In this document: one piece after another, positions 25,010 through 43,940 of the stretch
Position numbering within the stretch: the stretch's first letter is position 1
Layout: each line of letters opens with the position of its first letter
NCBI RefSeq assembly: GCF_030846775.1
Contig: NZ_CP132910.1
Coordinates: 2,514,001 to 2,578,000, forward strand
Source: Geothrix sp. 21YS21S-2
Lineage (GTDB): Bacteria; Acidobacteriota; Holophagae; Holophagales; Holophagaceae
Direction of reading: 5' to 3'
Length of the DNA stretch: 64,000 nt
Translations under genes and position numbers: made by a program
The notes under the pieces: generated by a model
Databases searched by the model: none
Seen by the model: only the letters and a program-made list of their open reading frames with translations
Told to the model about the DNA's origin: nothing

Positions 25010-25095
25010 GGCCGCCTCCGGCCTCCATTCTACCCCGGGCGCCCAGGGGCGCCGGATTGTAAGAAGCGCCCGGAATGGCATACTTACAGGTCCCC

Positions 25096-25887
25096 ATGAC
25101 GGCCACCCGATCCCTCCTGCCCCCGCGCCTCCGCCAAGCCGGCAAGGTCCTCACCAGCGGAATCCTCTTCACCCTCCTGGGCGTGGGAGGCTGCGTGTGC
25201 ACCCTGCTCATCCGGCCCGTCCTGGCCGTGCTGCCGGGGGGCCGGGAAGCGCGCCGGCGGCGGGCGGCGCGCATCATCCGGCGCTTCTTCAGGCTCTTCG
25301 TCTTCGGGCTGGAGGCTTCGGGGATCCTGCAGGTGGAGACGGACGGGATGCCCCAGGGGCTCAAGGGCGCCCTCATCCTGGCGAACCACCCCTCGTACCT
25401 GGACATCGTGATCCTCATCGCCCTGCTGCCGGACACGGTGTGCGTGGTGAAGGAGGCGGTCTGGAACAACCTCTTCTTCGGTCCGCTGGTGCGGGCCGCG
25501 GGCTTCATCAACAACCAGGGGCCGGATGAGGTGCTGGAGCACTGCGGCCTCGCCCTCGCCTCGGGGCAGAACCTCGTGATCTTCCCGGAAGGGGGCCGCA
25601 CCCGCCCGGGCCCGCCCCTGAGGTTCAAGCGGGGAGCGGCCCACCTGGCCCTGAGGACAGGCGCCCCCATCCTGCCGGTGCGCGTATCCGTGGACCCGCC
25701 CCTCCTGGCCAAGGGGGACCGCTGGTACATGGTCCCGGCGCCCACCTGCAGGTTCCGCTTCGCCTTCGGCGACTGGGTCCACGCCCCGGCGGCGGCGGAG
25801 GCGGACCACCCCCGGGAGGCCCGGATCCTCACGCGGATCCTGGAGAGCCGCTTCAACGAGGAGAGCCATGGCTCCCACGCCCTTTGA
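25096..25887 (+). CDS. 1-acylglycerol-3-phosphate acyltransferase-like (PlsC family)
   Basis: 263 residues. An N-terminal membrane helix is followed by the acyltransferase motifs NHPSYLD (catalytic His-x4-Asp) and FPEGGRTR. It would move an acyl group from ACP or CoA to a lipid or sugar. The next gene, an ACP, overlaps its end by 20 bases, so the pair is translationally coupled: this enzyme may take its acyl chain from that ACP. PlsC-like enzymes occur in aryl-polyene clusters, where they attach the polyene to a lipid. ATG 25096 is preferred over 25075. Confidence 0.85.
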   Translation: MTATRSLLPPRLRQAGKVLTSGILFTLLGVGGCVCTLLIRPVLAVLPGGREARRRRAARIIRRFFRLFVFGLEASGILQVETDGMPQGLKGALILANHPSYLDIVILIALLPDTVCVVKEAVWNNLFFGPLVRAAGFINNQGPDEVLEHCGLALASGQNLVIFPEGGRTRPGPPLRFKRGAAHLALRTGAPILPVRVSVDPPLLAKGDRWYMVPAPTCRFRFAFGDWVHAPAAAEADHPREARILTRILESRFNEESHGSHAL

Positions 25888-26131
25888 GCTGAAGGTCTTC
25901 ATCATCGAGGCCCTGGACCTGGAGGACCTCCGTCCCGGGGACATCGGCGACGACCAGCCCCTGTTCAAGGGGGGCCTGGGGCTGGATTCCGTGGACGCCC
26001 TGGAGCTGGCCATGGCCCTGAAGCGCCGTTTCGGCGCCACGGTCGAGGAGGCCGGATCCCTCCAGGGACGCCTGGGCACCGTGCGGGCCCTGGCCGCATG
26101 GCTCGCCGAGGGGGGCGGAAAAACCGGGTGA
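25868..26131 (+). CDS. Acyl carrier protein, polyene cluster (first)
   Basis: 87 residues, four-helix ACP fold with GLDSVDALEL; Ser41 is the 4'-phosphopantetheine site. It starts inside the acyltransferase gene after GAGGAGAG. Its helix II lacks the extended acidic motif of primary-metabolism AcpP, so it looks specialised for the cluster. Confidence 0.9.
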   Translation: MAPTPFELKVFIIEALDLEDLRPGDIGDDQPLFKGGLGLDSVDALELAMALKRRFGATVEEAGSLQGRLGTVRALAAWLAEGGGKTG

Positions 26132-26190: not shown

Positions 26191-26637
26191 ATGAAGCCTG
26201 CGGTCGTACTCGCCACCATCGCCATCCTGCTGGGAGCGCCCGCGCTCGAGGCCGGCACCAAGCTCTCCCGGGCCGTGGTGGACGGCAATCTCCAGCTGGC
26301 CAAGAACCTCGTGGAGACCGGGGAGAAGGTCAACGACGTGGACAAGTGGGGCTGGACGCCCCTGGCCTGGGCGGCCTACTACGGGCACCCGGTCATCGTG
26401 AAGTGGCTCCTGGAACAGGGAGCGGATCCCAACATCCTGACCTTCAAGGAATACGGACGCTACAAGCCGGGCGTGTCGCCGCTGCTCCTGGCCGCCTACT
26501 ACGGGTACGAGGAGATCGTGGCCGACCTGCTCAAGGCCAAGGCCGACCCCGACATCGCGGACGTCTCCGGCAGGAAGCCCGTGGACTACGCCCGGGATTT
26601 CGGGTTCACCAGGTGCGTGGAGCTGCTTTCCCGGTAG
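26191..26637 (+). CDS. Periplasmic ankyrin-repeat protein
   Basis: 148 residues: signal peptide (1-21) followed by three to four ankyrin repeats (DKWGWTPLAWAAYYG, then PLLLAAYYGYEEIV, then a SGRKPVDYA unit). The protein is closely similar to the C-terminal ankyrin part of the caspase-like protein at 51300-52871, sharing DKWGW-PL-WA-YYG, RGADPN/QGADPN and AAYYGYE/AAYFGYE. It would bind protein partners in the periplasm. It lies in the polyene cluster by position, but no direct role is seen. Its 3' end overlaps the convergent glycosyltransferase gene by 32 bases. Confidence 0.85.
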   Translation: MKPAVVLATIAILLGAPALEAGTKLSRAVVDGNLQLAKNLVETGEKVNDVDKWGWTPLAWAAYYGHPVIVKWLLEQGADPNILTFKEYGRYKPGVSPLLLAAYYGYEEIVADLLKAKADPDIADVSGRKPVDYARDFGFTRCVELLSR

Positions 26638-27769
26638 ACCGGAACCGCCTGATCAGCACGTAGACCGGCAGCGCGAGGAGCAGCCCCAGCAGGGGCCCCA
26701 CCACCAGGGACCCCAGCAGCCACTCCCAGAGCCTCTGGGGGAATTCGGCGACCAGGCCCTGGCGGTTCCAGGCGGTCCACCAGCGCCCGTGGAGGAGCAG
26801 GTGCCCCGCCTGCACGCAGAGGAAGGGCACGAAGGGGGCCACGCAGACGTTGGAGGCGCCCATGCCGGCCAGCTTGTTGAGGTGCAGGCGGTGGTGCACG
26901 AAGGCGATGACCACCAGGCCGAAGGGGATGATGGGCAGGCTGCCCAGGAAGACGCCCAGCCCCGCCGCGGTGGCCAGCGCCGCGGGGCTGTCGTGCTCGG
27001 TGGCAAGGGTCCGCAGGAAGGCCCGGGGCGACGCCAGGGCCCGCCGGGCCTCTCCGGCCAGGGGCGGCCCCTGGCGATGGAACAGGGCGCGCACGACCAG
27101 GAACGTGTGGAGCGCGGTGAGCCGCAGGTTGTCCCGGAAGGCCCGGAAGTGGGAGACGCGCTCGCGGCCGGGCTGGTAGAGGACCCGGATGGGGGCCTCC
27201 ACGATGGCCAGGCCCGCCCAGGCCCCGCGCACCAGGACCTCCACCTCGAAGGCGTAGCGCCGGGAGCGGAACCGGCATCCGGTGAGGAACGCCACGGGGT
27301 AGACCCGGAAGCCGCTCTGGGTGTCGCGCAGGTCGCGCCCGCACTCCAGGCGGACCCAGAAGTTGGAGAAGGCGCGGCCGAAGCGGCTGGACCCGGGCAC
27401 CTCCGGGCCGTCCATGGCGCGCACGCCGATGGCGATGGCGGGCCAGTGCGCCGCGGCGGCGGCGATGAGCGCCGGGGCGTCGGCGGGGTAGTGCTGTCCG
27501 TCGGCGTCGATGGAGAGCAGGGCCCCGAAGCCCTCGGCCGCGGCCGCCCGGGCCCCGGCCAGGAGCGCGGCGCCCTTGCCCTGGTTGGGCTCCAGGCGGA
27601 GGGTGCGCACGGGGAGGTCCGCCACCCGCTCCAGGGCGCCGTCGCGGCTGCCGTCGTCCACCACCAGCACGGGCAGCCCCTGGCCGAGCAGCCCCTCCAC
27701 GACCCCGCGCAGGGTGGCGGCGTGGTCGTACACCGGCACCACCGCCAGGACGCGGGGCGCCTCAGTCAT
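26606..27769 (-). CDS. GT2 glycosyltransferase with DUF2062 membrane domain
   Basis: 387 residues. Residues 1 to about 240 are a GT-A family 2 transferase (VVPVYDHA, VVDDGSRDG, SIDADGQHYP as the DxD site). Residues about 275-375 are a DUF2062 membrane domain (LATAAGLGVFLGSLPIIPFG plus further helices). DUF2062-linked GT2 proteins occur in polyene and lipid-glycan clusters. The enzyme would transfer a sugar to a polyprenyl or polyene lipid at the inner membrane. It overlaps the upstream deacetylase gene by 8 bases, so both are co-translated. Confidence 0.88.
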   Translation of the reverse strand: MTEAPRVLAVVPVYDHAATLRGVVEGLLGQGLPVLVVDDGSRDGALERVADLPVRTLRLEPNQGKGAALLAGARAAAAEGFGALLSIDADGQHYPADAPALIAAAAAHWPAIAIGVRAMDGPEVPGSSRFGRAFSNFWVRLECGRDLRDTQSGFRVYPVAFLTGCRFRSRRYAFEVEVLVRGAWAGLAIVEAPIRVLYQPGRERVSHFRAFRDNLRLTALHTFLVVRALFHRQGPPLAGEARRALASPRAFLRTLATEHDSPAALATAAGLGVFLGSLPIIPFGLVVIAFVHHRLHLNKLAGMGASNVCVAPFVPFLCVQAGHLLLHGRWWTAWNRQGLVAEFPQRLWEWLLGSLVVGPLLGLLLALPVYVLIRRFRSTGKAAPRTW

Positions 27770-29213
27770 GGGAAGGGCCCGGCCAGCGCCCCTCCACTTC
27801 CAGGATCATGCCGCCCCGGCCGAAGAGCTTGAGGAGGTGCCCCTCGGCGCGCACGGTCTCGATGCCCGCCGCGCCCAGGAGCCGGACCACTTCCCGCCGG
27901 GAGCGGGACTTGAGCCAGATGCCCTGGCGCAGCGCGTTGCCCACCTGGGTCCAGAACCGCAGGAAGGACGTGCGCGCGGTGATGAAGTACACGGGGGCGC
28001 CGGGCTCGAGGTGGGGCGCCAGGCGCCGGAAGAAGGCCGGCAGGTCCTGGAAGTACTCGAAGACGAGGAAGGAGAAGACGGCGGCGTAGGGGCCCTCGAA
28101 GGCAAAGGACTCCGCGTCCCCCTCCAGGGCGCGGATGTTCGTGACGCCCGCGGCCGCGGCCTTGCGCTCCAGGTGGCGCAGCATGTTCCCGGAGAGGTCC
28201 ACGGCGTGCACCTCCGCGCAGCGCCGGGCCAGCTCCAGGGTGAAGATGCCCGTGCCCGCGCCCAGTTCCAGCACGGTGCCCCGCCCCCGGAGGAGGTCGG
28301 GGAGGCGCCTGCGGAAGAGCTCGAGTTCCAGGTTCCGGCTCAGGGCCACGGCGGTGCCGAACTGCTCCTGGTCGTAGGTGCCGGCGAGGTCGTCGTAGAA
28401 GCTTTCGGCGGCGCCCTGGGTCTCCAGGCCGCGCTGCATCAGGGCCCGGCCCAGGAGCGCGGACGGGGGCACCACCTCCAGGCCCCGCTCGCCCAGTCCG
28501 CGCACCACGGCCTCCAGCTCCCCCAGCAGCTCGTCCACGGTGGCCCGGGTGGGCCTCACGTCGTGCAGGAGGATCAGGTCCCCGGGCCGGACCTTGTCCA
28601 GGATGCGCCGGGCCAGGCCCGGCACCCGGCGGTTGCCCTGGTCCAGGGCCCGGCAGCTGAAGTTCACGCAGAACATGCCGTGGTCCAGGAGCACCGGCCA
28701 CAGCCGGGAGCTGGTGATCCCCACCGGCGGCCGGAAGGCCCGGGGCAGGATGCCGAAACCCTTGAAGATCTCCTGGGCCCGGGCCACCTCCTCGCGGAGG
28801 ATCTTCTGGCCCCGGAGCATGAGCATCGGGAAGTGGTGCCAGCTGTGGCTGCCGACCTCATGGCCCCGGGCGAGGATGTCGCGCACGAGGTCCGGGTTCG
28901 CCTCGGCCTTGGCGGCCACCAGGAAGAAGGCCGCCTTCAGGCCGTGGCGGTCCAGGAGGTCCAGGACCGCGGGGGTCGCCGCGGGATCCGGCCCGTCGTC
29001 GAAGCTCAGCGCCACGCGGGGCGACCTGCGGCTGCCCCGGGACAGGATGGGCAGGAAGAAGCCGAAGCGCGGCAGGAAGGGGGCCACCCCGCAGAGGAGG
29101 ACGAAGAGGGCCAAGGGCAAAGCGGCCAATCGAACGTCCACGAAAAGCAGGAGGAAAGCCAGCTGGAACGCGGTGAGGGCCGCCAGGTGGGCCACGGTCA
29201 GGGGGAAGCGCAT
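27762..29213 (-). CDS. Fusion of NodB-type polysaccharide deacetylase and SAM methyltransferase
   Basis: 483 residues. Residues 1-45 hold two hydrophobic segments. Residues about 60-250 are a NodB carbohydrate-esterase 4 domain: VALSFDDGPD, HEVGSHSWHHF (metal His pair), FRPPVG and LILLHDV. Residues about 270-475 are a class I methyltransferase (VLELGAGTGIFTLEL, HAVDLSGNML, FSFLVFEYFQDL). One protein could thus N-deacetylate a sugar and methylate the product, or methylate the polyene itself. The gene is divergent from the first radical SAM gene over a 67-base spacer with AT-rich -10-like sequences. Confidence 0.88.
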   Translation of the reverse strand: MRFPLTVAHLAALTAFQLAFLLLFVDVRLAALPLALFVLLCGVAPFLPRFGFFLPILSRGSRRSPRVALSFDDGPDPAATPAVLDLLDRHGLKAAFFLVAAKAEANPDLVRDILARGHEVGSHSWHHFPMLMLRGQKILREEVARAQEIFKGFGILPRAFRPPVGITSSRLWPVLLDHGMFCVNFSCRALDQGNRRVPGLARRILDKVRPGDLILLHDVRPTRATVDELLGELEAVVRGLGERGLEVVPPSALLGRALMQRGLETQGAAESFYDDLAGTYDQEQFGTAVALSRNLELELFRRRLPDLLRGRGTVLELGAGTGIFTLELARRCAEVHAVDLSGNMLRHLERKAAAAGVTNIRALEGDAESFAFEGPYAAVFSFLVFEYFQDLPAFFRRLAPHLEPGAPVYFITARTSFLRFWTQVGNALRQGIWLKSRSRREVVRLLGAAGIETVRAEGHLLKLFGRGGMILEVEGRWPGPSHD

Positions 29214-29280: not shown

Positions 29281-30630
29281 ATGAGTCGAATCCTCCTAGT
29301 CTCCGCCAATCTGACCCTGGAGCCCTACCCGGTCTACCCCCTGGGGATGGCGGTGGTGGCGGGGTCGCTGGCCGCGCGGGGCCACCTGGTGGAGCAGTTC
29401 GACTTCCTGGCCGCGGGCGCCTCGGCGGCCGCCTTCACGGCGCGCGTGCGCGATTTCGGCCCGGACTTCCTGGGCATCTCCATGCGCAACCTGGACACCT
29501 GCGATTCCCTGGTGGATTCAGACTACCCGGCCGTGGCGCGGCGCCTGGTGGAACTGGCCCGGACCTGCACGGACGCCCCCGTCATCCTGGGGGGCCCGGC
29601 CTTCACGATCCTGCCTGAGGCGATCCTCGCCTACACGGGCGCCGACCACGGCGTCGCCGGCGAAGGGGAGGGCGCGGCGGCGGACCTGGTGGAGGCCCTG
29701 GCCGCGGGCCGGACGATGCCCCGCATCCACCGCAATGCCGGCCTGGCCCCGGAGATGGCGGCCCCGCGCTACGACGAGGCCATCGTGCGCTTCTACCAGG
29801 AGGCCTCGGGTCTCCTGAACATCCAGACCAAGCGGGGCTGCTCCCACCAGTGCGTCTACTGCAACTACCCGGCCCTGGAAGGGTCGGCCTACCGCGCGCG
29901 GGACCCGCGCGCCGTCGTCGACGACCTGGAGGAGGCCCACGCCCGCTTCGGCCAGGCCGACTTCTTCATCGCCGACGCGGTGTTCAACGACCACGGCGGC
30001 CAGCACATGGAGGTGGTCGAGGAGCTGCTGCGCCGCGCGCTGCCCATAAGGTGGTCCTGCTACATGCGCCCCAGCCTGCTGCGCGAAACGGACCTGCGCC
30101 TCATGGCCAGGGCCGGCCTGCGCGCCGCCGAACTGGGCACGGACGCCACCACCGACGCGACCCTGCGGGCCCTGGGCAAGGGCTTCACCTTCGACGAGGC
30201 GGTGGAGGCCAACGAGCTCTTCGTGGCCTGCCGCGTCCCCTGCGCGCACTTCGTGATGTTCGGCGGGCCCGGGGAGACCGAGGCCACGGTCGCCGAGGGC
30301 CTGGCCAACCTGCAGCGGCTGCGCAGAACCGCGGTCTTCGCCTTCTCGGGCATCCGCATCTTCCCCGCCACCGCCCTGCACCGCCTGGCCCTGCTGGAGG
30401 GCAAGGTGGGGCCGGACACCGACCTGCGCGAGCCTGTCTACTACCACGCCGCCGGTGTGGACGTCAGGGCCATGGAGGCCCGCATCGAGGCGGCCTTCCG
30501 GGGCCACAGGGACCGGTTCTTCCCGCCCGAGCGGGGCCGGGAGCGCATGACGGCCCTGCAGGCCATGGGGTTCCGGGGGCTCATCTGGGATTCCCTCATC
30601 CGCTACCCGAAGGATGCGCAGCCGTGCTGA
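29281..30630 (+). CDS. B12-binding radical SAM protein 1
   Basis: 449 residues. Residues 1-150 are a cobalamin-binding Rossmann domain (ILLVSANL at the N-terminus; VILGGPAFTILPEAIL; GVAGEGEGA) without the DxHxxG motif, as is usual in this group. The radical SAM core follows, with C187, C191 and C194 (CSHQCVYC) for the 4Fe-4S cluster. Such enzymes methylate or rearrange unreactive carbons. The overall order resembles the B12-radical SAM proteins of lipid clusters proposed for ladderane formation; that link is a hypothesis. GTG of the next gene lies inside its last codons. Confidence 0.88.
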   Translation: MSRILLVSANLTLEPYPVYPLGMAVVAGSLAARGHLVEQFDFLAAGASAAAFTARVRDFGPDFLGISMRNLDTCDSLVDSDYPAVARRLVELARTCTDAPVILGGPAFTILPEAILAYTGADHGVAGEGEGAAADLVEALAAGRTMPRIHRNAGLAPEMAAPRYDEAIVRFYQEASGLLNIQTKRGCSHQCVYCNYPALEGSAYRARDPRAVVDDLEEAHARFGQADFFIADAVFNDHGGQHMEVVEELLRRALPIRWSCYMRPSLLRETDLRLMARAGLRAAELGTDATTDATLRALGKGFTFDEAVEANELFVACRVPCAHFVMFGGPGETEATVAEGLANLQRLRRTAVFAFSGIRIFPATALHRLALLEGKVGPDTDLREPVYYHAAGVDVRAMEARIEAAFRGHRDRFFPPERGRERMTALQAMGFRGLIWDSLIRYPKDAQPC

Positions 30631-32075
30631 ACTACCGGAAGATCCTCCTCATCCATCCGCTCGGGTACCGCGCCGGCGCCGCCGGGCAGGACATCTCCCG
30701 GGTCGCCAACCTCATGCCGCCCCTGGGGCTGGCGAGCCTGGCGGCGTACCTGGACGCCCGGGGCATGGAAACCGCGATCATCGACTGCTTCGCGAACCCG
30801 GATTCCGACGGCCTCATCGAGGCGCACCTTCGCGCCGAGCGCCCGGGCTTCGTGGGCTTCAGCTGCACCACCTCGAGCTTCCTGGACGGCGTGCGCATCG
30901 CGGAGCTGGCCAAGCGGGCCTGCCCCGGGGTCCTGAGCGTCTTCGGGGGGCCCCACATCTCGGCCCTGAAGGAGCGCCTGCTGCGGGAGTACCCCGCCAT
31001 GGACTTCGCCGTGGCCGGCGAGGGCGAGGAGACCCTGCGCGAGCTGATGGACGGCGGCTTCGAGACGCCGGCCCAGGTGCGGGGCCTCATCTGGCGGGAC
31101 GGCCCGGACGGGGACATCCGCTTCAACGGCTACCGGACCGGGCTGGAGCTGGACAGCCTCCCCTTCCCCGCCTACGGCAAGCTCGCGGGTTTTCCGGGCG
31201 CCTACAAGCTGCCCATCTTCAACTACCCCACCGTCCCCAACACCAGCTGCATCTCCAGCCGGGGCTGCCCCTACGCGTGCTCCTACTGCGACCGGAGCGT
31301 GTTCCAGCGCAGCTTCCGGTCCAACTCGGCGGAGTACCTCTACGACCACATGCGCATGCTGCGCGGGCGCTTCGGCATCCGCCACATCAACTTCTACGAC
31401 GACCAGTTCACCCTGGACCGCCGGCGGGTGGAGCGGCTCACGGACCGGCTCCTGGCCGAACCCCTGGGGATGACCTTCAACTGCGCCGTGCGGGCCGAGC
31501 ACATCGACCCGGACCTGGTGGGCCGCATGAAGCGGGCCGGGTGCTGGATGATGAGCCTGGGTATCGAGACCGGCGACGCCGAGCTCCTGGCCCGGCACCG
31601 CCAGAACCCCGACCTCGAACACCTGGCCGGAAAGATCCGCACCATCAGCGCCGCGGGCATCCGCACCAAGGGCCTGCTCATGATCGGGCTCCCCGGGGAG
31701 ACCGAGGCCAGCATCCGCCGCAGCATGGACTACGTCTTCTCCCTGCCCGTGGACGACTTCAACCTCGCCAAGTTCACGCCCTTCCCCGGTTCGCCCATCT
31801 ACGACGGCATCCGCGAGCTGGGGGACTTCGACGAGGACTGGGAGAAGATGGACTGCATGAACTTCCAGTTCGTGACCCGCGGCATGACCCGGGAGCGGCT
31901 GGAGGAGCTGTTCCGGGAGTTCTACGAGCGGCACTTCAAGCGGCCCAAGGTGCTGTGGGGCTACGTCACCATGCTCTGGCGTTCCCCCGACAGCTGGCTT
32001 CGCTTCCTGGCCGGACTGGGGAGCTTCCTGCGCTTCACCCGCTCCACCCGGCGCATGATGGCACGGGAGGACTAG
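30624..32075 (+). CDS. B12-binding radical SAM protein 2 (BchE-like)
   Basis: 483 residues from GTG 30624, overlapping the upstream gene by 7 bases. A B12-binding domain fills residues 1-165 (NLMPPLGLASLAAYLDARG, VFGGPHIS, VAGEGEETLRELM), then a radical SAM core with C215, C219 and C222 (CPYACSYC), and a DUF4080/BchE-like C-terminal part. Homologues insert methyl groups or do oxidative carbon chemistry. It ends one base into the acyltransferase start (TAG/GTG overlap), so the whole cassette is coupled. Substrate unknown, probably the polyene chain or its lipid anchor. Confidence 0.88.
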   Translation: MLNYRKILLIHPLGYRAGAAGQDISRVANLMPPLGLASLAAYLDARGMETAIIDCFANPDSDGLIEAHLRAERPGFVGFSCTTSSFLDGVRIAELAKRACPGVLSVFGGPHISALKERLLREYPAMDFAVAGEGEETLRELMDGGFETPAQVRGLIWRDGPDGDIRFNGYRTGLELDSLPFPAYGKLAGFPGAYKLPIFNYPTVPNTSCISSRGCPYACSYCDRSVFQRSFRSNSAEYLYDHMRMLRGRFGIRHINFYDDQFTLDRRRVERLTDRLLAEPLGMTFNCAVRAEHIDPDLVGRMKRAGCWMMSLGIETGDAELLARHRQNPDLEHLAGKIRTISAAGIRTKGLLMIGLPGETEASIRRSMDYVFSLPVDDFNLAKFTPFPGSPIYDGIRELGDFDEDWEKMDCMNFQFVTRGMTRERLEELFREFYERHFKRPKVLWGYVTMLWRSPDSWLRFLAGLGSFLRFTRSTRRMMARED

Positions 32076-32989
32076 TGGAGCCCGGCCGGATCGAGTGGCG
32101 GATTCGAGGCATCGGAACCCGGTGGCAGCTGGGCTTCTTCCACGGGCTGATCCGGCTGGCGGGGCGGTCCGTGGCCTACGCCCTGGCGGACCTGGTGAGC
32201 CTCTACTACACCCTCACCCGGCCTTCCATCCGCCATCGGTGCCGGCCGTACCTCGCCCACCGGTTCCCCGGGCGCACCGGGCTCCGGCGCCTGGTGGACA
32301 CCTTCCGCCTGAGCCGCACGTTCGCGCGGCTCATGGTGGACCAGGCCGCCCAGCGGATCCTGGGCCGGGGGGAGTTCATCACCCACCTGCGGGGCCGCGC
32401 GGACCTGGCGGCCCTCCTCGCCGAAGGCCGGGGCCTGGTCATCGTCACCGCCCACGTGGGGGCCTGGCAGCTGGGCATGGCCAACCTCGCCCACCTGGAC
32501 CGCCCCATCTCCGTGCTGGCGCGGTTCGACGCGGGGGACGCCAGCTCCCCCTTCCAGGCCTTCGCCGGCCGCGACTTCCGGATCATCGACCCGGAGGCCT
32601 TCCTGGGCGGCGTCCCGGACATGCTGGGCGCGCTGCAGCGCGGCGAGGTCCTGTGCCTCATGGGGGACCGGGCCTGGGGCGCCAGCGGCGGCACCGTGGC
32701 GGTGGACTTCCTGGGCGGCCCGGTGCCGCTGCCCTTCACCGCCTACAAGCTGGCCTCGGCCACCGGGGCGCCCGTGGCGGTGCTCTTCCCCTTCAAGCCC
32801 GGTCCGGACCAGTACGAGATGCAGCTGGCCGCCGTGGTCCGCGTCCCGCCCGGCCTGGGACGGGCCCCGGAGGCCTACCTCCCCTACGCCGCCGCCTACG
32901 CCCAGGCCCTGGCGGGCTTCCTGGACGCCTATCCCTACCACTTCTTCAACTTCTTCGACCTGTGGGCCGGAGAGACCGGCCCCCGGTGA
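32075..32989 (+). CDS. LpxL/HtrB-like lipid acyltransferase
   Basis: 304 residues from GTG 32075, sharing one base with the stop of the radical SAM gene. Residues 30-55 are hydrophobic; the acyltransferase motif is TAHVGAWQ, with H127 but Gln132 in place of the usual Glu/Asp of the HxxxxE/D motif. Later blocks (LMGDRAWG, DFLGGP) match the LABLAT family. Such enzymes occur in polyene clusters and probably transfer an acyl or aryl-polyene chain to a lipid anchor. The Gln replacement could lower activity or mark a special donor. Confidence 0.82.
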   Translation: MEPGRIEWRIRGIGTRWQLGFFHGLIRLAGRSVAYALADLVSLYYTLTRPSIRHRCRPYLAHRFPGRTGLRRLVDTFRLSRTFARLMVDQAAQRILGRGEFITHLRGRADLAALLAEGRGLVIVTAHVGAWQLGMANLAHLDRPISVLARFDAGDASSPFQAFAGRDFRIIDPEAFLGGVPDMLGALQRGEVLCLMGDRAWGASGGTVAVDFLGGPVPLPFTAYKLASATGAPVAVLFPFKPGPDQYEMQLAAVVRVPPGLGRAPEAYLPYAAAYAQALAGFLDAYPYHFFNFFDLWAGETGPR

Positions 32990-32999
32990 ACGCGACGCC

Positions 33000-34163
33000 A
33001 TGCGCTTCCTGATCCTGCCGGGCAGCAACGCCCTGTCCCACCTCGCCAAGGGCCTGGCCCTGCGGGAGGCCCTCCTGGCCAGGGGCCACGAAGTGGCCTT
33101 CGCCACCACCCCGGCCCGCTCCCCCTTCCTGGCGGAACTGGGCGTGCCCCACCACCTGCTGCCCGACCTGCAGGAGGCCGACCAGGGGTCGGCCCCGGCC
33201 TACGCCTGGTTCCGCCAACCCGAGCGGTTCCTCCGGGTGGTCCAGGCGGAGCGGGCGCTCATGGCCGAGGTGCGGGCCCAGCGGGTCGTGGGCGTCTTCC
33301 GGTTCACGGCCACCACCTCCGCGGCCCTGGCGGGCCTGCCCTGCGACACCCTGGCCTGCGGCTGCATGATCCCGGCCTTCCGGGGCGTCCTGGGGTTCGG
33401 GGAGGGCGAGCCGGGGGCGGCCGAACAGGGGGTGTTCCTGGAGGCCTTCTTCCGCGGGGCGGCCCGCCGGGTGTCCATGGCCCTGGGGGCCCTGGGCCGG
33501 CCGGCCGTGCAGGATGCGCGCGCCCTCCTGCTGGGCGGCCGCACCTTCCTGTGGGACACCCCCGGCTTCCAGCCCCTGGCCGCCTCGGAAGGCCTGGAAC
33601 ACGTGGGCCCCCTGGCCTGGAATCGCTGGCCCCGGGCGGGCGGGGCGGTTCCCGGCGCGCCCCTGGCCGTCCTCTCCATGGGCACGGCCCTGCCCCCGGG
33701 CGCGGGACCCGCCCGACTCCTTGATAGGCTGCTGGCCCTGGGCTACCGGGTCGCCCTGGCCGGCGGGGGCCACCCGGCTCCGGACCGGAACGACCCGCGC
33801 ATCACCGCCTACACCTACGCCCCCATGAACGGCCTGCTGGAGCGGGCCGCCCTCCTCGTCTGCCACGGAGGCCAGCAGACCGTCTTCGAGGCCCTGGCCC
33901 ACGGCGTGCCCGTGGGCGTCTTTCCCTTCCACCCGGAACAGGCCCAGAACGGGCTCTGCCTGGAGCGGCTGGGGGCTGGCGCCCGGCTGGTTCCCCCCAC
34001 GGTCTTCTGGGGGTCCAGCGACGTCTATGCCCGGGCCCTGGAGGCCATGGACGATGCGGAGCTGGACGCCCGCATCCTCGCCCTGCGGGACCTGACCGCC
34101 CGCACCCCGGACCCGGGCCTGGACCGGGGAGCCGAACGTCTGGCGGAACGGCTGGAGACCTGA
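33000..34163 (+). CDS. GT1-family glycosyltransferase
   Basis: 387 residues with GT-B architecture. The N-terminal half begins MRFLILPGSNALSHLAKGLAL; the C-terminal half has APMNGLLERAALLVCHGGQQTVFEALAHG, the UDP-sugar-binding region of UGT/macrolide-type glycosyltransferases (HGG motif). It would glycosylate a hydroxyl of a lipophilic product, here probably the polyene. Its start lies 10 bases after the acyltransferase gene; its stop overlaps the fusion gene by one base. Confidence 0.86.
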   Translation: MRFLILPGSNALSHLAKGLALREALLARGHEVAFATTPARSPFLAELGVPHHLLPDLQEADQGSAPAYAWFRQPERFLRVVQAERALMAEVRAQRVVGVFRFTATTSAALAGLPCDTLACGCMIPAFRGVLGFGEGEPGAAEQGVFLEAFFRGAARRVSMALGALGRPAVQDARALLLGGRTFLWDTPGFQPLAASEGLEHVGPLAWNRWPRAGGAVPGAPLAVLSMGTALPPGAGPARLLDRLLALGYRVALAGGGHPAPDRNDPRITAYTYAPMNGLLERAALLVCHGGQQTVFEALAHGVPVGVFPFHPEQAQNGLCLERLGAGARLVPPTVFWGSSDVYARALEAMDDAELDARILALRDLTARTPDPGLDRGAERLAERLET

Positions 34164-35848
34164 TGCGCATCCTCCTGGTGCACGGCTACACCGGATCCCC
34201 CGCGGATCTCGCGCCCCTGGCCGAGGCGCTGGACGCGGTCCTCGGGCCCGGGCACACCCGGCTGGCGGCCCTCCATCCCCGGTGGCGGGGCGGCCCGCCG
34301 CCGCCCTTCGACCGGGAGGCCTTCCTGGCGCTCCTGAGAGCCGAAGCCGAAGGCGGCCGTCCCCTGGTGGTGATCGGCCACTCCACCGGTGGCACCCTGG
34401 CCCTCCTGGCCCGCCTCGAACCCGACCTCCTGGTCCTCCTGGGCACCCCGCCCCGGGTGGGCCTGGACCACCTGGCGCGCCTCCAGGCCGCCACCCGCCC
34501 CGGAAACGAGGCGCCCGGGCTCCTGGATCTCGCCCGGCTGGTAAAGGCCGTCAACGAGGCCGGCGCCGCGGGTCTTCCGCCCGGGACCCTGGTGGTGCAT
34601 GGGGAGGCCGATCCCCTGGTGCCCCCCGAGGACCTGGCGCACTGGGGCCCGGCGGCGCGGCCGGTAGGGGTGCCGGGGGCCGGGCACCACCTGCCGGCGG
34701 CCCCGGTCCTGGCCGCGATCCTCGAAGCCCTGCCCCCCGCCCTCACCGGCCCCGACCAGGAACGGCTCCGGCTCCTGGAACCCCAGGTGGCCCGCTTTGC
34801 CGATCGGGTGCCCGGGGGCTGGCAGGTCCTGGGCCGGAGTCCTTCGGCCCGGCGGGCCCTGAGGCCCGGGACGGGCCTGCCGCCGGACCTGGGACCGTTG
34901 GCCCCGCCCCCGGTGCTGGCCAACCTCGAGGTCACCACCCGGTGCCCCCACGCCTGCCCCTCCTGCGCCCGGGCCACGGGCGCCCCCCACCGGGGCGACC
35001 TGAACCGGTTCCAGGAGGTCCTGGACCGCCTGCCCCACGCCTCCCGCCTGACCCTGGTGGGCCTGGGGGAGCCCACGCTCCATCCGCGCCTGGCGGAACT
35101 GGTGGCCCTGGCCGCCGGGGAGGGCCGCGGCGTGGGCCTGGTGACCAGCGGCGCGGCCCTGACCCCGGACCTGGCCCGGAGCCTGGTCCAGGCCGGACTC
35201 GGGGGGGCCACCTTCAGCCTGGACGCGGGCGAGGCCGACCTGGCCGGGCGGCTGCGCCCCGGCGTGCCCTTCGCGCGGACCCTCGCCCACCTGACGGAGG
35301 CCGCCCGGATCTTCGGCGACCGGGTGCCCCGGGCGGTGTTCACCGCCGTGGGCACGGCCAACGCCCGGCACCTCGCTCCCGTGGCGGACCTGGCCCTCGC
35401 CCTGGGCGCCCGGGCCTGGATGCTGTCGGACCTGAACTTCGACGCCAACCGGGACCGTTCCCTGGCCGGGGCCGCCACCGGGGAAGACCGGACGGCCATC
35501 CGGGAGGCCGTGGACGGGGCCATGGCCGCTGGTCTGCCCGTTCTGCACGTGCGCGGACTGGAGGAACTGGGCAAGCCCTTCCGTCTGCGGGAGCTGCTCC
35601 TGCGCCCGGTGGACGCGCTTTGGAGCCGAAGCCCCGGCCACGCCAACTGCCTGTCCCCCTGGCAGACCCTCGCCCTGGGCGCCGACGGCACGGTCACGGC
35701 CTGCGATTGCCAACCCGGTGAGGAGGTGGGCAACCTCTTCGAAACGCCGTTCCAGGCCCTGTGGAACGGCCCGGGCATGGTCCGCCTGCGGCAGGAGCTG
35801 CTCGCCGGGACGCCGCGGGCGGCGTGCCGCCACTGCCCCCGGCTCTGA
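34163..35848 (+). CDS. Alpha/beta-hydrolase fused to a radical SAM-SPASM enzyme
   Basis: 561 residues. Residues 1 to about 195 are an alpha/beta-hydrolase (ILLVHGYTGSP; nucleophile elbow GHSTGG with Ser74; Asp150 in GEADP; His175/176 in GAGHHLP). Residues about 250-480 are a radical SAM core with C261, C265 and C268 (CPHACPSC). Residues 490-561 are a SPASM/twitch-type domain with C496, C514, C516, C555 and C558 (NCLSPWQT..., GTVTACDC, CRHC), which holds extra 4Fe-4S clusters. An esterase/thioesterase active site joined to a radical enzyme is unusual. It could release or transfer an acyl product and modify it in one step; substrate unknown. It ends the coupled cassette begun at 29281. Confidence 0.88.
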   Translation: MRILLVHGYTGSPADLAPLAEALDAVLGPGHTRLAALHPRWRGGPPPPFDREAFLALLRAEAEGGRPLVVIGHSTGGTLALLARLEPDLLVLLGTPPRVGLDHLARLQAATRPGNEAPGLLDLARLVKAVNEAGAAGLPPGTLVVHGEADPLVPPEDLAHWGPAARPVGVPGAGHHLPAAPVLAAILEALPPALTGPDQERLRLLEPQVARFADRVPGGWQVLGRSPSARRALRPGTGLPPDLGPLAPPPVLANLEVTTRCPHACPSCARATGAPHRGDLNRFQEVLDRLPHASRLTLVGLGEPTLHPRLAELVALAAGEGRGVGLVTSGAALTPDLARSLVQAGLGGATFSLDAGEADLAGRLRPGVPFARTLAHLTEAARIFGDRVPRAVFTAVGTANARHLAPVADLALALGARAWMLSDLNFDANRDRSLAGAATGEDRTAIREAVDGAMAAGLPVLHVRGLEELGKPFRLRELLLRPVDALWSRSPGHANCLSPWQTLALGADGTVTACDCQPGEEVGNLFETPFQALWNGPGMVRLRQELLAGTPRAACRHCPRL

Positions 35849-35946: not shown

Positions 35947-36201
35947 ATGCCCCCCAAGACCCAGGAAGAGATTCTCCAGTGGGTCCGCTCCGCCCTGAAG
36001 ACGAACTTCCATCTGGACCCGCGCTCCGTGCGCATGGACTCGAACCTCTTCACCGACCTGGGCCTGGACAGCATCGACGAGGTCGAGCTGGCCCAGCACA
36101 TGCAGGAGTACACCGGGCGCCGCCTGGCGCCGGAGGAGTTCCGGGTGCTGTGCACCGTGGAGGACGTGGTGGTCTCCGTGCAGAAGATGCTGGAAGCCTG
36201 A
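35947..36201 (+). CDS. Acyl carrier protein, polyene cluster (second)
   Basis: 84 residues with FTDLGLDSIDEVELAQHMQE; Ser42 carries the phosphopantetheine arm. It resembles the aryl-polyene ACP pair (ApeE/ApeF type). It is followed after 5 bases by the AMP-ligase gene, which may load its aryl starter onto this ACP. Confidence 0.92.
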   Translation: MPPKTQEEILQWVRSALKTNFHLDPRSVRMDSNLFTDLGLDSIDEVELAQHMQEYTGRRLAPEEFRVLCTVEDVVVSVQKMLEA

Positions 36202-36206: not shown

Positions 36207-37511
36207 ATGGGGCGCCTTGCGGGCCTTTTCGCGGAGGACCGGCCGCAGGCCTCGGTGGTGGCCCTCACGGGCCAGGGACCCCGCACCTTCGGGGAGCTGG
36301 CCCGGGGCGCCGCGACGGCGGCCGGGAAGGCCGCGGCGGGGGGCCGCTGGCTGCTGGCCTGCGAGGACCCCTTCGCCTTCGCGGCGGGCTTCCTGGGCCT
36401 GGTCCAGGCCGGGTGCGTGCCCGTTCTTCCCCCCAACCTGCTGCCGGGAACCCTGGAGGCCCTGAAGGCCGACGGCCTCCTCCGGGACGCGGACCTGGCC
36501 GCGCCCGCGGACGCCCTGCCGCCGCCCCGCGTCCTGGCGGACGTGCCGGTGGAGTTCTGGACGTCCGGGAGCACCGGCGCCCCCAAGCAGGTCCTGCGGC
36601 GCTTCCAGGATCTGGACCGGGAGGTGGAGATCCTGGAAGGGCTCTTCGGCCCGCTCCCGGGAACGGTGGCCGGCACGGTGCCCCACCTGCACATCTACGG
36701 CTGCCTGTTCCGGGTCTTCTGGCCCCTGGCCACGGGGCGGCCGTTCCTGTCGGAGCCCTGCGGGGATCCGGCCCGGTTCCTGGCCGTGATGGCCTCCCGG
36801 CCGGTGCTCGTGAGCAGCCCCGCGCACCTCGCCCGGCTGCCCAGGCTGCTGGATCTGGGCGGCCTGGACCTGCCGGCGGTGTTCTCCTCCGGGGGCGCCC
36901 TGGGCCGGGAGGACGCCCTGGCCTGGCGGGCCGCGGCCCCCGGCGGGGTGGTGGAGGTGTACGGCAGCACCGAGAGCGGCGGCATCGCCTGGCGGAACCC
37001 CGGGCCCGATCCCGCCTCCTCGCGGTGGACCCCCTTCCCCGACATGGCCCTGGCCGCCGCGGAGGACGGCGCCCTGCTCCTGCGCTCGCCACGGGTGGAA
37101 GCCGGGGGCCTGCGCATGGAGGACGCCGTTTCCCTGGAGGCCGACGGCCGGTTCACCCTGCTGGGGCGCCTGGACCGCGTGGTGAAGATCGAGGAGAAGC
37201 GGGTCTCGCTGCCCCAGGTGGAGGAGGCCCTCAAGGCCCATCCGCTGGTGCGGGACGCGGCGGTGGTGGTGCTGGAGGGCCGGCGCCGGATGCTCGGGGC
37301 GGCCGTGGTTCTGGCCGGAGCGGCGGACCTGGAGGACCCGGCGGCGCGCCGCGCGCTGTCCGATCGCCTAGGCGCCCATCTGGCGGGCACGCTCGAGGGG
37401 CCTGCCCTTCCCCGGCGGTGGCGCTTCGTGGCGGAACTGCCCAGGGACGCGCGGGGCAAACTGCGGGCCGAGGACCTGGCCGGCCTTTTCACCCCCTCGG
37501 GTAATGCCTGA
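36207..37511 (+). CDS. AMP-dependent acyl/aryl-ACP ligase
   Basis: 434 residues, short for the ANL superfamily but with all key blocks: P-loop TSGSTGAPK (119-127), YGSTESGGIAW, the hinge LGRLDRVVKIEEKRV and a C-terminal ARGKLR with the catalytic Lys. It would activate an aromatic acid with ATP and pass it to an ACP, as the ligase of aryl-polyene clusters does. ATG 36207 lies 5 bases after the ACP stop; a longer reading frame overlapping the ACP is rejected. Confidence 0.9.
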   Translation: MGRLAGLFAEDRPQASVVALTGQGPRTFGELARGAATAAGKAAAGGRWLLACEDPFAFAAGFLGLVQAGCVPVLPPNLLPGTLEALKADGLLRDADLAAPADALPPPRVLADVPVEFWTSGSTGAPKQVLRRFQDLDREVEILEGLFGPLPGTVAGTVPHLHIYGCLFRVFWPLATGRPFLSEPCGDPARFLAVMASRPVLVSSPAHLARLPRLLDLGGLDLPAVFSSGGALGREDALAWRAAAPGGVVEVYGSTESGGIAWRNPGPDPASSRWTPFPDMALAAAEDGALLLRSPRVEAGGLRMEDAVSLEADGRFTLLGRLDRVVKIEEKRVSLPQVEEALKAHPLVRDAAVVVLEGRRRMLGAAVVLAGAADLEDPAARRALSDRLGAHLAGTLEGPALPRRWRFVAELPRDARGKLRAEDLAGLFTPSGNA

Positions 37512-37573: not shown

Positions 37574-37837
37574 ATGACCACCGTCAATCCCACCCGGGAC
37601 GAGATCCTCACGCAGCTGAGGACCATCCTCGCCAGTTCCTTCGACCTGGCCCCGGAGCGCATCACCCTGGAGGCGCATCTTTTCACCGACCTCGATCTGG
37701 ACAGCATCGACGCCGTGGAGCTCGCCATCCAGCTGCAGGAGATCACCGGGCGGCGGGTGAAGGCGGAGGAGTTCAAGCACGTGCGCACGGTCGCGGACGT
37801 GGTGGAAGCGGTCCACCAGATGCTCCAGGTCAAATGA
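37574..37837 (+). CDS. Acyl carrier protein, polyene cluster (third)
   Basis: 87 residues with FTDLDLDSIDAVELAIQLQE, Ser44. It is closely similar to the second ACP, suggesting duplication, and together they form the starter/extender ACP pair typical of aryl-polyene clusters. Its stop overlaps the dehydratase start by 4 bases (ATGA). Confidence 0.92.
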   Translation: MTTVNPTRDEILTQLRTILASSFDLAPERITLEAHLFTDLDLDSIDAVELAIQLQEITGRRVKAEEFKHVRTVADVVEAVHQMLQVK

Positions 37838-38187
37838 GGTTCCCCGGAAGCGCCCGGGCCATGCCAGCCGGGCCCGACGGCAGCATCACCTTCGCCCTGG
37901 ACCTGGACCCCGGCCTGCTGGGCTTCCAGGGGCACTTCCCGGGGAACCCGATCCTCCCCGGCGTCGTGCAGGTGGACTGGGCCGTGCATTTCGGGATGGA
38001 GGCCTTCGGCCCCCTGGGCGCGTTCCGGGGCGTCGAGCACCTGAAGTTCATGAACGTCATCCGGCCCGGCGAGGACCTCACGCTCACCCTCGCCCTGGAC
38101 CCCGCGCGGGAAAACCTCAAGTTCAGCTTCCAGGACGGTGCCGGCCGGAAGGCCGCCGGCATCCTCCGCTTCCAGGGAAACGCCTAG
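37834..38187 (+). CDS. Hotdog dehydratase, FabZ/ApeI-like
   Basis: 117 residues with the FabZ/FabA-like helix motif GFQGHFPGNPILPGVVQVDW, in which His34 is the expected base. It would dehydrate 3-hydroxyacyl-ACP intermediates during polyene chain growth. Coupled to the ACP upstream; the ammonia-lyase gene starts immediately after its stop. Confidence 0.85.
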   Translation: MRFPGSARAMPAGPDGSITFALDLDPGLLGFQGHFPGNPILPGVVQVDWAVHFGMEAFGPLGAFRGVEHLKFMNVIRPGEDLTLTLALDPARENLKFSFQDGAGRKAAGILRFQGNA

Positions 38188-39717
38188 ATGGGCGCCGTCA
38201 CCGTGGGCCTCGCGCCGCTGCGCATCGAGGACGTGGTGGACGTCGCCACGGGGTCCCGGTCCCTGGCCCTGGCCCCGGATCCGGCCTTTCGCGCGCGCAT
38301 CCAGGCCGGGGCGGCCATCCTGGCCGGCCTGCTGGAAGGCGGCACCGAGGTCTACGGCGTCACCACCGGCTACGGGGACTCCTGCACCACCGCCGTGCCG
38401 GCTTCGCTGGTCCCGGAGCTGCCCACCCACCTCACCCGGTACCACGGCTGCGGCCTGGGCCGGATCCTCGACGAGGACGAGACCCTGGCCGTCCTCGTGG
38501 CGCGCCTCAATTCCCTGGCCCAGGGCTTTTCCGGCGTCCGGTGGGAGCTGCTGGAGGCCCTGGAGGGCCTCGTGGCGCACCGGGTGCTGCCCCGGATCCC
38601 CGCCGAGGGCTCCGTGGGCGCCAGCGGCGACCTGACCCCCCTCTCCTACGTGGCGGCCACCCTCATCGGCGAACGGGAGGCCACCTTCCGCGGCGAGGCG
38701 CGGCCCGCCCGGGAGGCCCTGGCCGAGGCGGGCCTGGCCCCCCTGCGCCTGGCCCCCAAGGAGGGCCTGGCCCTCATGAACGGCACAGCGGTCATGACCG
38801 GGCTGGCCTGCCTCGCCTTCCACCGGGCCTCGTACCTGGAGCGCTTCTGCTGCCGGCTCACGTCCCTGGCCGTGGCGGCCCTGCGGGGCAACCGGGACCA
38901 CTTCCACCCCCGGCTCTTCGCGCTCAAGCCCCACGCGGGGCCCCAGGCCGCCGCAGCCCGGATCCACGCCGACCTGGGCGGACCCGCCGAGGACCAGGCG
39001 GTGCGCCTCCAGGACCGCTACTCCATCCGCTGCGCGCCCCACGTCATCGGCGTCCTGGGCGACGCCCTCGCCTGGATCCGCCGGGACGTGGAGAACGAGC
39101 TCAACAGCGCCAACGACAACCCCCTGCTGGATCCCGGCGACGGGCTCCTGCTTCACGGCGGGCACTTCTACGGCGGGCACATCGCGTTCGCCATGGACGG
39201 CCTCAAGACCGCCGTGGCCAACCTGTCGGACCTCATGGACCGCCAGCTGGCGCTGCTGGTGGACGCCCGCTACAACAACGGCCTCCCCCAGAACCTCTCG
39301 GGGTCCCTGGGCCCCCGGGCCGCCATCAACCACGGCCTCAAGGCGGTGCAGATCGGCGCCAGCGCCTGGACCGCCGAGGCCCTCAAGCTCACGATGCCCG
39401 CCTCGGTCTTCTCCCGTTCCACGGAGTGCCACAACCAGGACAAGGTGAGCATGGGCACCATCTCCGCCAGGGACGCCCTGCGGGTGCTCGAACTGACGGA
39501 GCAGGTGGCCGCGGCCCTCGCGCTGGCCGTGGTGCAGGGCCTGCGCCTGCGGGAGCGCCAGGGCGACGCGGCGGTGGAACGGCTCGGGCCGGGCGCGAAA
39601 TCCTTCCTGGAGTCCTTCGCCTGGCTCCCCTTCCTGGACGAGGACATCGCCCTGGACACCACCCTGCGGTCCCTCATCGCCGCCATCCGGAACCAAGCCT
39701 GGAGCCTCTACCCATGA
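38188..39717 (+). CDS. MIO-dependent aromatic amino acid ammonia-lyase
   Basis: 509 residues, the length of bacterial HAL/TAL. The MIO prosthetic group forms from A145-S146-G147 in GSVGASGDLTPLSY. The catalytic Tyr56 lies in YGVTTGYGDS, a variant of the HutH form YGINTGFG; NSANDNPL and QDKVSMGT are also present. The substrate-selectivity pair is Tyr85-His86 (RYHGCGLG), unlike HutH (Ser-His) or R. sphaeroides TAL (His-Leu). No hut genes are near, and the gene sits between dehydratase and thioesterase genes, as in flexirubin clusters. It most likely makes cinnamate or 4-coumarate as the polyene starter. Tyr versus Phe is undecided. Confidence 0.9.
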   Translation: MGAVTVGLAPLRIEDVVDVATGSRSLALAPDPAFRARIQAGAAILAGLLEGGTEVYGVTTGYGDSCTTAVPASLVPELPTHLTRYHGCGLGRILDEDETLAVLVARLNSLAQGFSGVRWELLEALEGLVAHRVLPRIPAEGSVGASGDLTPLSYVAATLIGEREATFRGEARPAREALAEAGLAPLRLAPKEGLALMNGTAVMTGLACLAFHRASYLERFCCRLTSLAVAALRGNRDHFHPRLFALKPHAGPQAAAARIHADLGGPAEDQAVRLQDRYSIRCAPHVIGVLGDALAWIRRDVENELNSANDNPLLDPGDGLLLHGGHFYGGHIAFAMDGLKTAVANLSDLMDRQLALLVDARYNNGLPQNLSGSLGPRAAINHGLKAVQIGASAWTAEALKLTMPASVFSRSTECHNQDKVSMGTISARDALRVLELTEQVAAALALAVVQGLRLRERQGDAAVERLGPGAKSFLESFAWLPFLDEDIALDTTLRSLIAAIRNQAWSLYP

Positions 39718-40133
39718 AACCCATCCTCACCGGCGAGACCGTCCTCGAGGTGCCCTTCCACGACGTGGACGCCATGGGCGTCGCGTGGCACGGCCACTAC
39801 GTCAAGTACCTGGAGATCGCCCGCACCGCCATGATGCGCCAGGTGGGCCTGGACTGGCAGCAGATGAAGGACTGGGGCGTCATCTGGCCCGTGGTCACCT
39901 GCAACCTGAAGTACATCCGCCCCCTGAAGTACGGCCAGAGCGTGCGCGTCCAGTGCAGCCTCCTGGAGTACCAGCAGCGGATCCGCATCACCTACCTGCT
40001 CTCCGACGCCCTCACAGGCGAGCGCGTCAACAAGGCCGAGACCGTCCAGCTGGCGGTGGATTCGGCCACCGGCGAGCTGCTGTTCGAATGCCCCAGGGTG
40101 CTCACCGAGGCCCTGGAAGGGGCCCAGGCATGA
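39714..40133 (+). CDS. Hotdog acyl thioesterase (4HBT type)
   Basis: 139 residues with the 4-hydroxybenzoyl-CoA thioesterase pattern FHDVDAMGVAWHGHYVKYLE, the first Asp region being catalytic. It starts on ATGA overlapping the lyase stop and ends on ATGA into the LolA-like gene. It may release or edit acyl chains from the ACPs, as ApeL-type proteins do. Confidence 0.88.
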   Translation: MKPILTGETVLEVPFHDVDAMGVAWHGHYVKYLEIARTAMMRQVGLDWQQMKDWGVIWPVVTCNLKYIRPLKYGQSVRVQCSLLEYQQRIRITYLLSDALTGERVNKAETVQLAVDSATGELLFECPRVLTEALEGAQA

Positions 40134-43515: not shown

Positions 43516-43940
43516 TGATGCGACCCGCCGAGGACCTCCTGGTCCACCGCCCCCCCATGCTCCTCCTGGACGCCGTCCTGGACCACGGGCACGACTGGAT
43601 CCTGGCCCGGGCCCGGGTGGACCCCGGCGCCTGGTACGCCGACGGGGAGGGCGCCATGCCGGCCTGGTTCGGACTGGAGCTCATGGCCCAGGCCATCGGG
43701 GCCTACGGCGGCCTGGAGAAGCGGGCGCTGGGAGGGGAGCCCCGCCTGGGCTACCTCCTGGGGACCCGGGCCTACGCGTGCACCCGTCCCTCGTTCCCCG
43801 CGGGCTGCGAGCTGAGGATCCATGCGAAACTGAAGTACCTTGACGATGCGGGCCTGTCGGCCTTCCAGTGCGGCATCACGCTGGAAGGCGAGGAAGTCGC
43901 GACGGCCATCCTGAAGACCTTCGAGGGGGAGCGACCGTGA
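43515..43940 (+). CDS. Hotdog dehydratase, ApeP-like
   Basis: 141 residues beginning MMRPAEDLLVHRPPMLLLDA, the typical N-terminus of the ApeP/FabA-like 3-hydroxyacyl-ACP dehydratase of aryl-polyene clusters, with AWFGLELMAQAIGAYGG as the central helix. With the first dehydratase it may form a heteromeric pair. Confidence 0.85.
   Translation: MMRPAEDLLVHRPPMLLLDAVLDHGHDWILARARVDPGAWYADGEGAMPAWFGLELMAQAIGAYGGLEKRALGGEPRLGYLLGTRAYACTRPSFPAGCELRIHAKLKYLDDAGLSAFQCGITLEGEEVATAILKTFEGERP

Follow-up and report, generated by a model that had tools for sequence, protein, structure and literature searches.

A radical S-adenosylmethionine enzyme of the ladderane-named family TIGR04072 and its neighbours beside aryl polyene genes in Geothrix sp. 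21YS21S-2

What do cobalamin (B12)-binding radical S-adenosylmethionine (SAM) enzymes do beside type II fatty-acid-like genes? The question is raised by five genes of Geothrix sp. 21YS21S-2 (Acidobacteriota, Holophagaceae; assembly GCF_030846775.1). They occupy positions 29281–35848 of the window, which is the whole stretch of 64,000 nucleotides that we have analysed (contig NZ_CP132910.1, positions 2,514,001–2,578,000). The genome has 5.25 Mb in one contig. A preliminary description of this DNA had read the genes as a tailoring operon and had pointed to the B12-radical SAM enzymes proposed for ladderane formation in anammox bacteria. The genes, called here g1 to g5, are:

29281–30630, + strand: g1, ATG start, 449 residues, B12-binding radical SAM protein of family TIGR04072, TsrM-like, proposed C-methylase
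30624–32075, + strand: g2, GTG start, 483 residues, second B12-binding radical SAM protein, no named equivalog family
32075–32989, + strand: g3, GTG start, 304 residues, LpxL-like lipid acyltransferase (PF03279, Lip_A_acyltrans, 36.9 bits, cut-off 22.3)
33000–34163, + strand: g4, ATG start, 387 residues, GT1-type glycosyltransferase (PF00201, 32.2 bits, cut-off 19.5; MGT-like, 52.7 bits, below cut-off)
34163–35848, + strand: g5, ATG start, 561 residues, alpha/beta hydrolase fused to radical SAM and SPASM domains (PF04055 49.8 bits, PF13186 38.1 bits, both over their cut-offs)

The limits of these genes and their common strand are as previously described, and so are the overlaps: 7 bases between g1 and g2, one between g2 and g3, one between g4 and g5, with a gap of 10 bases between g3 and g4. 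Both g1 and g2 have B12-binding and Radical_SAM domains above the curated Pfam cut-offs; the radical SAM domain of g5 had been missed, which brings the total to three. The hydrolase half of g5, at its N-terminus, scores just below the Pfam cut-offs. The G+C pattern by codon position is the usual one for this DNA, with 0.97 in third positions of g2 and 0.96 in g3. Among named relatives, a Holophagaceae contig comes closest to the locus (identity 84% for g1 and 95% for g2). A type II polyketide/fatty acid cluster starts 98 bases downstream of g5 on the same strand, which bears out the reading of a tailoring operon adjoining such genes.

Our best explanation is that these genes form that end of a type II polyketide cluster which tailors and anchors the product. 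The cluster would be of the aryl polyene/flexirubin type, in a form known mostly from anaerobes; g1 would be a C-methylase and g2 would carry out a second B12-dependent step. We give this explanation a probability of about one half. Taken as a whole, the system is best read as a version of the aryl polyene pathway which belongs to anaerobes and is equipped with B12 enzymes.

The identity of g1 is the starting point. It is a member of TIGR04072 (rSAM_ladder_B12; described in NCBIfam as a lipid biosynthesis B12-binding/radical SAM protein), which it matches over its full length with 592.7 bits (cut-off 360). To this extent the suggested link with ladderane enzymes stands; ladderane or BchE-like chemistry is not supported. 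BzaD (TIGR04385), an enzyme of the benzimidazole lower ligand, is the second-best curated family, yet its 196.1 bits are below the cut-off of 450. TsrM, the tryptophan C2 methylase, gives 126 bits and BchE 71. BzaD and TsrM are the only other families matched by all 50 g1 proteins compared, at E 1e-20. Judged by these scores, g1 is nearer to models of C-methylation enzymes than to BchE. The name rSAM_ladder_B12 may reflect the ladderane hypothesis; we know of no tested function for this family.

The predicted model of g1 is a good one, with a predicted local distance difference test score (pLDDT) of 93 and a predicted template modelling score of 0.91. A fold search with it finds TsrM first (PDB 6wte and 6wtf, Z 35.4 and 34.8; the next match has 28.1). 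The top match has a root mean square deviation of 2.5 over 438 of the 449 residues, with 26% identity. TsrM is also best in a profile search, with 192 bits over positions 2–367 against 102 for the next. The radical SAM motif CX3CX2C (C187, C191 and C194) is present in 50 of 50 g1 relatives. The positions of TsrM residues were transferred through the profile alignment of g1 with TsrM. In TsrM, Arg69 is placed below the cobalt but does not bind to it, and its change to lysine stops tryptophan methylation; Glu273 shields the iron-sulphur cluster from SAM (PMC8992657, in excerpt). The arginine is found in all 50 close and all 27 distant g1 relatives (77/77). None is found at this position, often gapped, in 61 aligned pieces from 45 g2 proteins, in pieces of a third B12-type gene described below or in the other B12-domain proteins of the genome, of which only three could be aligned. 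TsrM thus shares with g1 the fold, the profile and the cobalamin-facing arginine, but not Glu273. According to the model, g1 would combine a TsrM-like cobalamin pocket with an open, ordinary radical SAM site, a combination which points to C-methylation.

In order to place g1 among its relatives, 84,980 species genomes were scanned with a seven-sequence alignment of a single conserved peptide stretch in g1. Of the 230 relatives found, the best 80 were taken as loci, so that all locus counts favour near relatives. They come from Geobacteraceae, Desulfuromonadaceae and other deltaproteobacterial groups, Nitrospirota, Holophagaceae, Brocadiaceae, Omnitrophota and others. Their genes are open frames of at least 60 residues scored with profiles built from the same loci, a procedure which leans toward finding members; draft genomes, on the other side, may miss genes. 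The usual order is (lyase)-dehydratase-LolA-MMPL-DUF3261-ApeI-thioesterase-ketosynthase-partner-third B12-type gene-g1-g2-GT2/acyltransferase-acyl carrier protein-ketosynthase-partner. Composition was counted in the 37 loci that have long flanks to the left and right of g1; the other 43 were excluded for their short contigs. A ketosynthase is found in all 37, its partner in 35, an acyl carrier protein in 33, and an acyltransferase, a thioesterase and the third B12-type gene in 32 each. MMPL and ApeI follow with 30, GT2 with 28, LolA and ApeP with 27 and DUF3261 with 24. Less common are g2 (20), DarH (10), the lyase (8) and GT1 (2).

The cassette is real and part of a recurrent system: relatives of g1, often with an adjoining g2, recur in many phyla, which is not expected by chance. 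The five genes do not form one natural unit. The recurrent core is g1-g2-g3, whose homologues in many loci, from many phyla, lie inside the cluster with ketosynthase genes on either side; g2 is immediately 3' of g1 in 36 of the 40 loci which have both. The accessory pair g4-g5 is separable, with g4 present in 6 of 80 loci. A hydrolase-radical SAM/SPASM fusion like g5 adjoins the GT1 gene in all five loci where it is visible (L046, L049, L053, L060 and L085); the sixth contig ends within g4. The third B12-type radical SAM gene is much more common (68 of 80 loci, directly 5' of g1 in 67 of them). Its B12 domain is weak and its CX3CX2C motif reads CKFNCFPC, as in L057:8745-10001; it belongs to no NCBIfam equivalog family. 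It is not found in the window, and the Geothrix genome has only weak relatives of it elsewhere (best 57.6 bits, 29% identity).

Two further features bear on the substrate. A purpose-made pattern scan did not find the class I methyltransferase motif in 33 of the 37 long-flank loci, and two of the four positives look spurious (L096, and L110 inside the g2 frame); the same scan is positive in 6 of 6 anammox-type clusters. In two loci (L094 and L104) the aromatic lyase lies directly 5' of g1. Together with BzaD and TsrM as nearest families, these features suggest an aromatic target for g1, as far as can be judged from sequence. L094 and L104 have in a row two ketosynthases, a thioesterase, acyl carrier proteins, the lyase and g1, and have neither g2 nor the third B12-type gene; this is perhaps the simplest form of the pathway.

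A complete cluster is found in a cultured type strain, Desulfuromusa kysingii DSM 7343 (L165 and L166 together). Besides DarH (475.8 bits, cut-off 300; a BtrH-related acyltransferase by its NCBIfam name), it includes an oxidase resembling phytoene desaturase and a gene resembling phenylacetate ligase. This species joins unusual gene types of the anammox clusters (g1, oxidase, ligase, MMPL and GT2) with the lyase and aryl polyene parts. Apart from ApeB, its parts correspond to the aryl polyene genes of Escherichia coli as tabulated in PMC8253772; ApeA and ApeG are outside the comparison.

The preliminary description did not name the aryl polyene pathway, whose genes, by Pfam and NCBIfam, make up the neighbourhood of the cassette in the window:

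25075–26131, + strand: PlsC acyltransferase and a third acyl carrier protein, related to cluster members in other loci
26606–27769, - strand: GT2 glycosyltransferase with DUF2062, related to the GT2 adjoining g1 elsewhere
27762–29213, - strand: polysaccharide deacetylase fused to a SAM methyltransferase, divergent from g1 (PF01522, PF13649)
35947–36201, + strand: acyl carrier protein 1 (NF003757, 89.3 bits, cut-off 65)
36207–37511, + strand: AMP-dependent acyl ligase, 4-coumarate-CoA-ligase-like (PF00501, PF13193; TIGR02372 124.7 bits, cut-off 334.7)
37574–37837, + strand: acyl carrier protein 2 (NF003757, 114.9 bits, cut-off 65)
37834–38187, + strand: ApeI-like dehydratase (PF22818, 52.8 bits, cut-off 28.5)
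38188–39717, + strand: aromatic amino acid lyase (PF00221, 514.5 bits; best NCBIfam model BagA/FevW tyrosine lyase, 395.6 bits, cut-off 1000)
40109–40726 (start approximate), + strand: LolA-like carrier (PF03548, 22.6 bits, just below the cut-off of 23.6; LolA2_flexi 33.8 bits, cut-off 125)
40730–42994, + strand: MMPL/RND exporter (PF03176, 46.6 bits, cut-off 20.5)
42991–43515, + strand: DUF3261 (ApeN-like) protein (PF11659, 61.8 bits, cut-off 22.3)
43515–43940, + strand: ApeP-like dehydratase (PF22817, 82.6 bits, cut-off 27)
43940–44674, + strand: FabG-type ketoreductase (NF004200, 371.2 bits, cut-off 273)
44655–45425, - strand: partner ketosynthase, N-terminal ketosynthase fold only (PF13723, 51.5 bits, cut-off 25)
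45422–46570, - strand: ketosynthase of the g1-type cluster (PF00109, 106.4 bits; 61–71% identity to ketosynthases adjoining g1 in the nearest relatives)
46936–48159, + strand: ketosynthase, FabF type (NF006587, 648.5 bits, cut-off 470)

The window thus has the chain-building parts of an aryl polyene pathway: ketosynthases with a partner, a ketoreductase, both dehydratases, acyl carrier proteins and a starter ligase. For export and anchoring it has the RND/MMPL exporter, DUF3261 and a lipid acyltransferase, with LolA just under the Pfam cut-off. The only candidate in the window for the head-group SAM methyltransferase (the role of ApeB) is the deacetylase-methyltransferase fusion, which is set beside ApeB by its domain and not by sequence; it is present in 2 of 80 related loci, both Holophagaceae (L039 and L046). 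The pocket motif of the lyase is YH in the window and SH in 10 distinct relatives (11 rows). The window also contains a caspase-type peptidase with PEGA and ankyrin repeats (51300–52871, - strand) and a separate ankyrin protein (26191–26637).

The E. coli ape and flexirubin clusters have the same ketosynthases with partner, ketoreductase, ApeI and ApeP, two acyl carrier proteins, ligase, acyltransferase, LolA, RND exporter and DUF3261; the window differs from E. coli by the addition of B12-radical SAM genes and an aromatic lyase. In E. coli the starter is 4-hydroxybenzoate, and the methyltransferase ApeB is credited with methylating the aryl head (PMC8253772, in excerpt), while most relatives of the g1 cluster are without the class I methyltransferase motif. 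Celluxanthenes, arylpolyene alkaloids of cellulolytic anaerobes, are also aryl polyenes from strict anaerobes; the words radical and cobalamin are absent from the text of the celluxanthene paper (PMC12144888). We have found no paper which combines aryl polyenes, radical SAM and cobalamin.

From these parts the following pathway may be proposed. The aromatic amino acid lyase probably supplies an aromatic acid, which the AMP ligase would load onto an acyl carrier protein. The ketosynthases, ketoreductase and ApeI/ApeP dehydratases would lengthen this starter into a conjugated chain, which g3 and the glycosyltransferases may join to a lipid. The LolA/MMPL/DUF3261 set would carry the product, apparently an aromatic polyene pigment bound to the membrane, to the outer membrane. 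As a TsrM-like cobalamin-dependent C-methylase, g1 would methylate an sp2 carbon of the product, most likely in the aromatic head, and so replace the ordinary SAM methyltransferase ApeB of known aryl polyene clusters. A second B12-dependent step, of unspecified kind, is attributed to g2.

The g2 protein is strongly conserved, with 54–95% identity to 35 relatives, and it scores alike for a P-methylase, an enzyme of ribosomally synthesized and post-translationally modified peptides, HpnJ and BchE. Its scores are 147 bits for BchE (cut-off 481.35) and 152.6 for HpnJ (cut-off 577.6). Ring chemistry of the BchE or HpnJ type was not accepted for g2, since the four families lie within 12 bits and all are far below their cut-offs. 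Its predicted model is middling (pLDDT 75.7), with AprD4, TsrM and OxsB as best folds, which do not separate methylases from other enzymes. The preliminary description had named tRNA modification as a function that would overturn its reading; this is ruled out on scores for both genes. Against the MiaB-like MtaB model g1 has 27.7 bits (cut-off 357.05), and g2 has 22.9 against TIGR00089 (cut-off 251).

Several points weigh against methylation of an aromatic head by g1. The lyase is present in only 8 of the 37 long-flank loci, so that for the majority an aromatic starter is not shown. The position of TsrM Glu273 is occupied by V, I or L in 50 of 50 g1 relatives, hence g1 is distinct from TsrM and could apply radical chemistry to another type of carbon. 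The shared fold is no proof of reaction, as the non-methylases OxsB and AprD4 also reach Z 28 with the model. In the window itself, the methyltransferase domain at 27762–29213 could methylate the head, and g1 is also found in anammox clusters with a class I methyltransferase and without lyase. Finally, the evidence consists of genes and models, from which the substrate, the reaction and the product are predicted. The scarcity of the lyase, its absence beside anammox g1 and the standard radical SAM site left by the loss of Glu273 would all fit a different target for g1, in the conjugated chain or the lipid anchor, where a carbon would be methylated or otherwise changed in a product which is still a polyene lipid. 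We find this doubtful: the closest families act on aromatic rings (TsrM, PMC8992657 in excerpt; BzaD, from the model name), and the lyase directly precedes g1 in L094 and L104. It is less probable still that the cassette is a separate operon for a glycolipid or capsule lipid which adjoins the aryl polyene cluster by chance, an idea favoured by the 98 bases between g5 and the first acyl carrier protein gene and by the few loci with g4-g5. In many loci, from many phyla, the homologues of g1-g2-g3 are enclosed by ketosynthase genes of the cluster, and the minus-strand ketosynthase of the window is of the type found directly 3' of g1-g3 elsewhere; such an operon is thus unlikely.

There remains the closure of carbon rings by g1, with g2, as proposed for ladderanes, from which the host would make cyclobutane or other cyclic chains. 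According to the literature, ladderanes are tied to anammox genera (PMC9902471, in excerpt). Besides the TIGR04072 score of g1, this reading draws on the Kuenenia/Desulfotalea ladderane-candidate cluster (Rattray 2009): six of six anammox-type loci share with it g1, the ketosynthase pair, acyl carrier protein, ligase, MMPL, phytoene-desaturase-like oxidase and GT2, in an order which fits the published kuste3335-3352 region (PMC2649909, in excerpt). These six loci are without lyase, g2 and third B12-type gene, while D. kysingii has all three. The sample of anammox genomes comes from the class to which the Brocadiaceae locus L117 belongs: of 58 genomes in it, 35 have a hydrazine synthase match; G302 and G313 were set aside (11 and 16 matches, other protein lengths), leaving 33 anammox-like genomes. 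Only five of them (G308, which is presumably Kuenenia, G318, G328, G337 and G340) have a TIGR04072 member over the cut-off, and 28 have none. The nearly closed genomes G312, G324 and G327, with hydrazine synthase, have none over the cut-off and contain only a more distant subfamily; the partner radical SAM gene of the anammox cluster, which shows the same sparse pattern, was not found in these three at 67% identity or more. This second TIGR04072-like subfamily (about 325 bits) is seen in others too; its loci in hydrazine-synthase genomes (L144, L147, L150, L155 and L157) do not adjoin ketosynthase genes. Of 12 loci with distant relatives of g1 from the anammox class, none has a ketosynthase beside the g1-like gene.

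A phylogeny of g1 against ladderane-cluster proteins, as the preliminary description had proposed, puts the window copy in the large clade of non-anammox clusters, apart from the anammox copies; BchE was compared by score only. The anammox cluster copies form one clade (support 100) outside the 33-row clade (99) which holds g1 of the window, in a tree of the quick type with 58 rows, a long-branch warning and BzaD and TsrM left out. A search of 117 genomes from the D. kysingii class gave no BzaD match over threshold; as no genome at all was positive, this is uninformative on the presence of BzaD. Rattray et al. themselves, after review, shifted the ring-closing role from Kuste3342/3343 and kept Kuste2803 as candidate (PMC2649909, in excerpt). 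Candidate genes expressed in E. coli yielded no ladderanes, which is weak evidence, because the two radical SAM proteins were undetected there (PMC4790861, in excerpt). With the fold and Arg69 of a methylase in g1, ring closure is very improbable. The ladderane reading for g1 is weak, and the label is inherited, not demonstrated.

Beyond the aryl polyene reading of the window, we tentatively suggest that the anammox "ladderane" TIGR04072 cluster and the clusters described here are one superfamily of anaerobic aryl-polyene-type pathways. In such a superfamily g1, with its TsrM-type pocket and working radical SAM site, would methylate a carbon of the aromatic part or of the polyene. A further carbon-carbon change in the polyene would fall to g2, joined by the third B12-type gene in the loci that have it. 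No paper linking ladderane-type and aryl-polyene-type clusters was found among those consulted, and neither TIGR04072 nor rSAM_ladder occurs in any paper among the matches listed.

Ladderane biosynthesis is a long-open question, and the cluster of the TIGR04072 family is still among the candidates. Our comparison puts the usual home of this family in an aryl-polyene-type cluster, across many anaerobic phyla. It offers C-methylation as an alternative role, with key residues (Arg69 present, Glu273 absent) and a cultured carrier, D. kysingii DSM 7343. If the superfamily reading is true, TIGR04072 drops off the list of cyclobutane makers. It might also explain the "ladderane clusters" which genome surveys report in bacteria other than anammox (PMC9902471, in excerpt), if the surveys detect the TIGR04072 gene.

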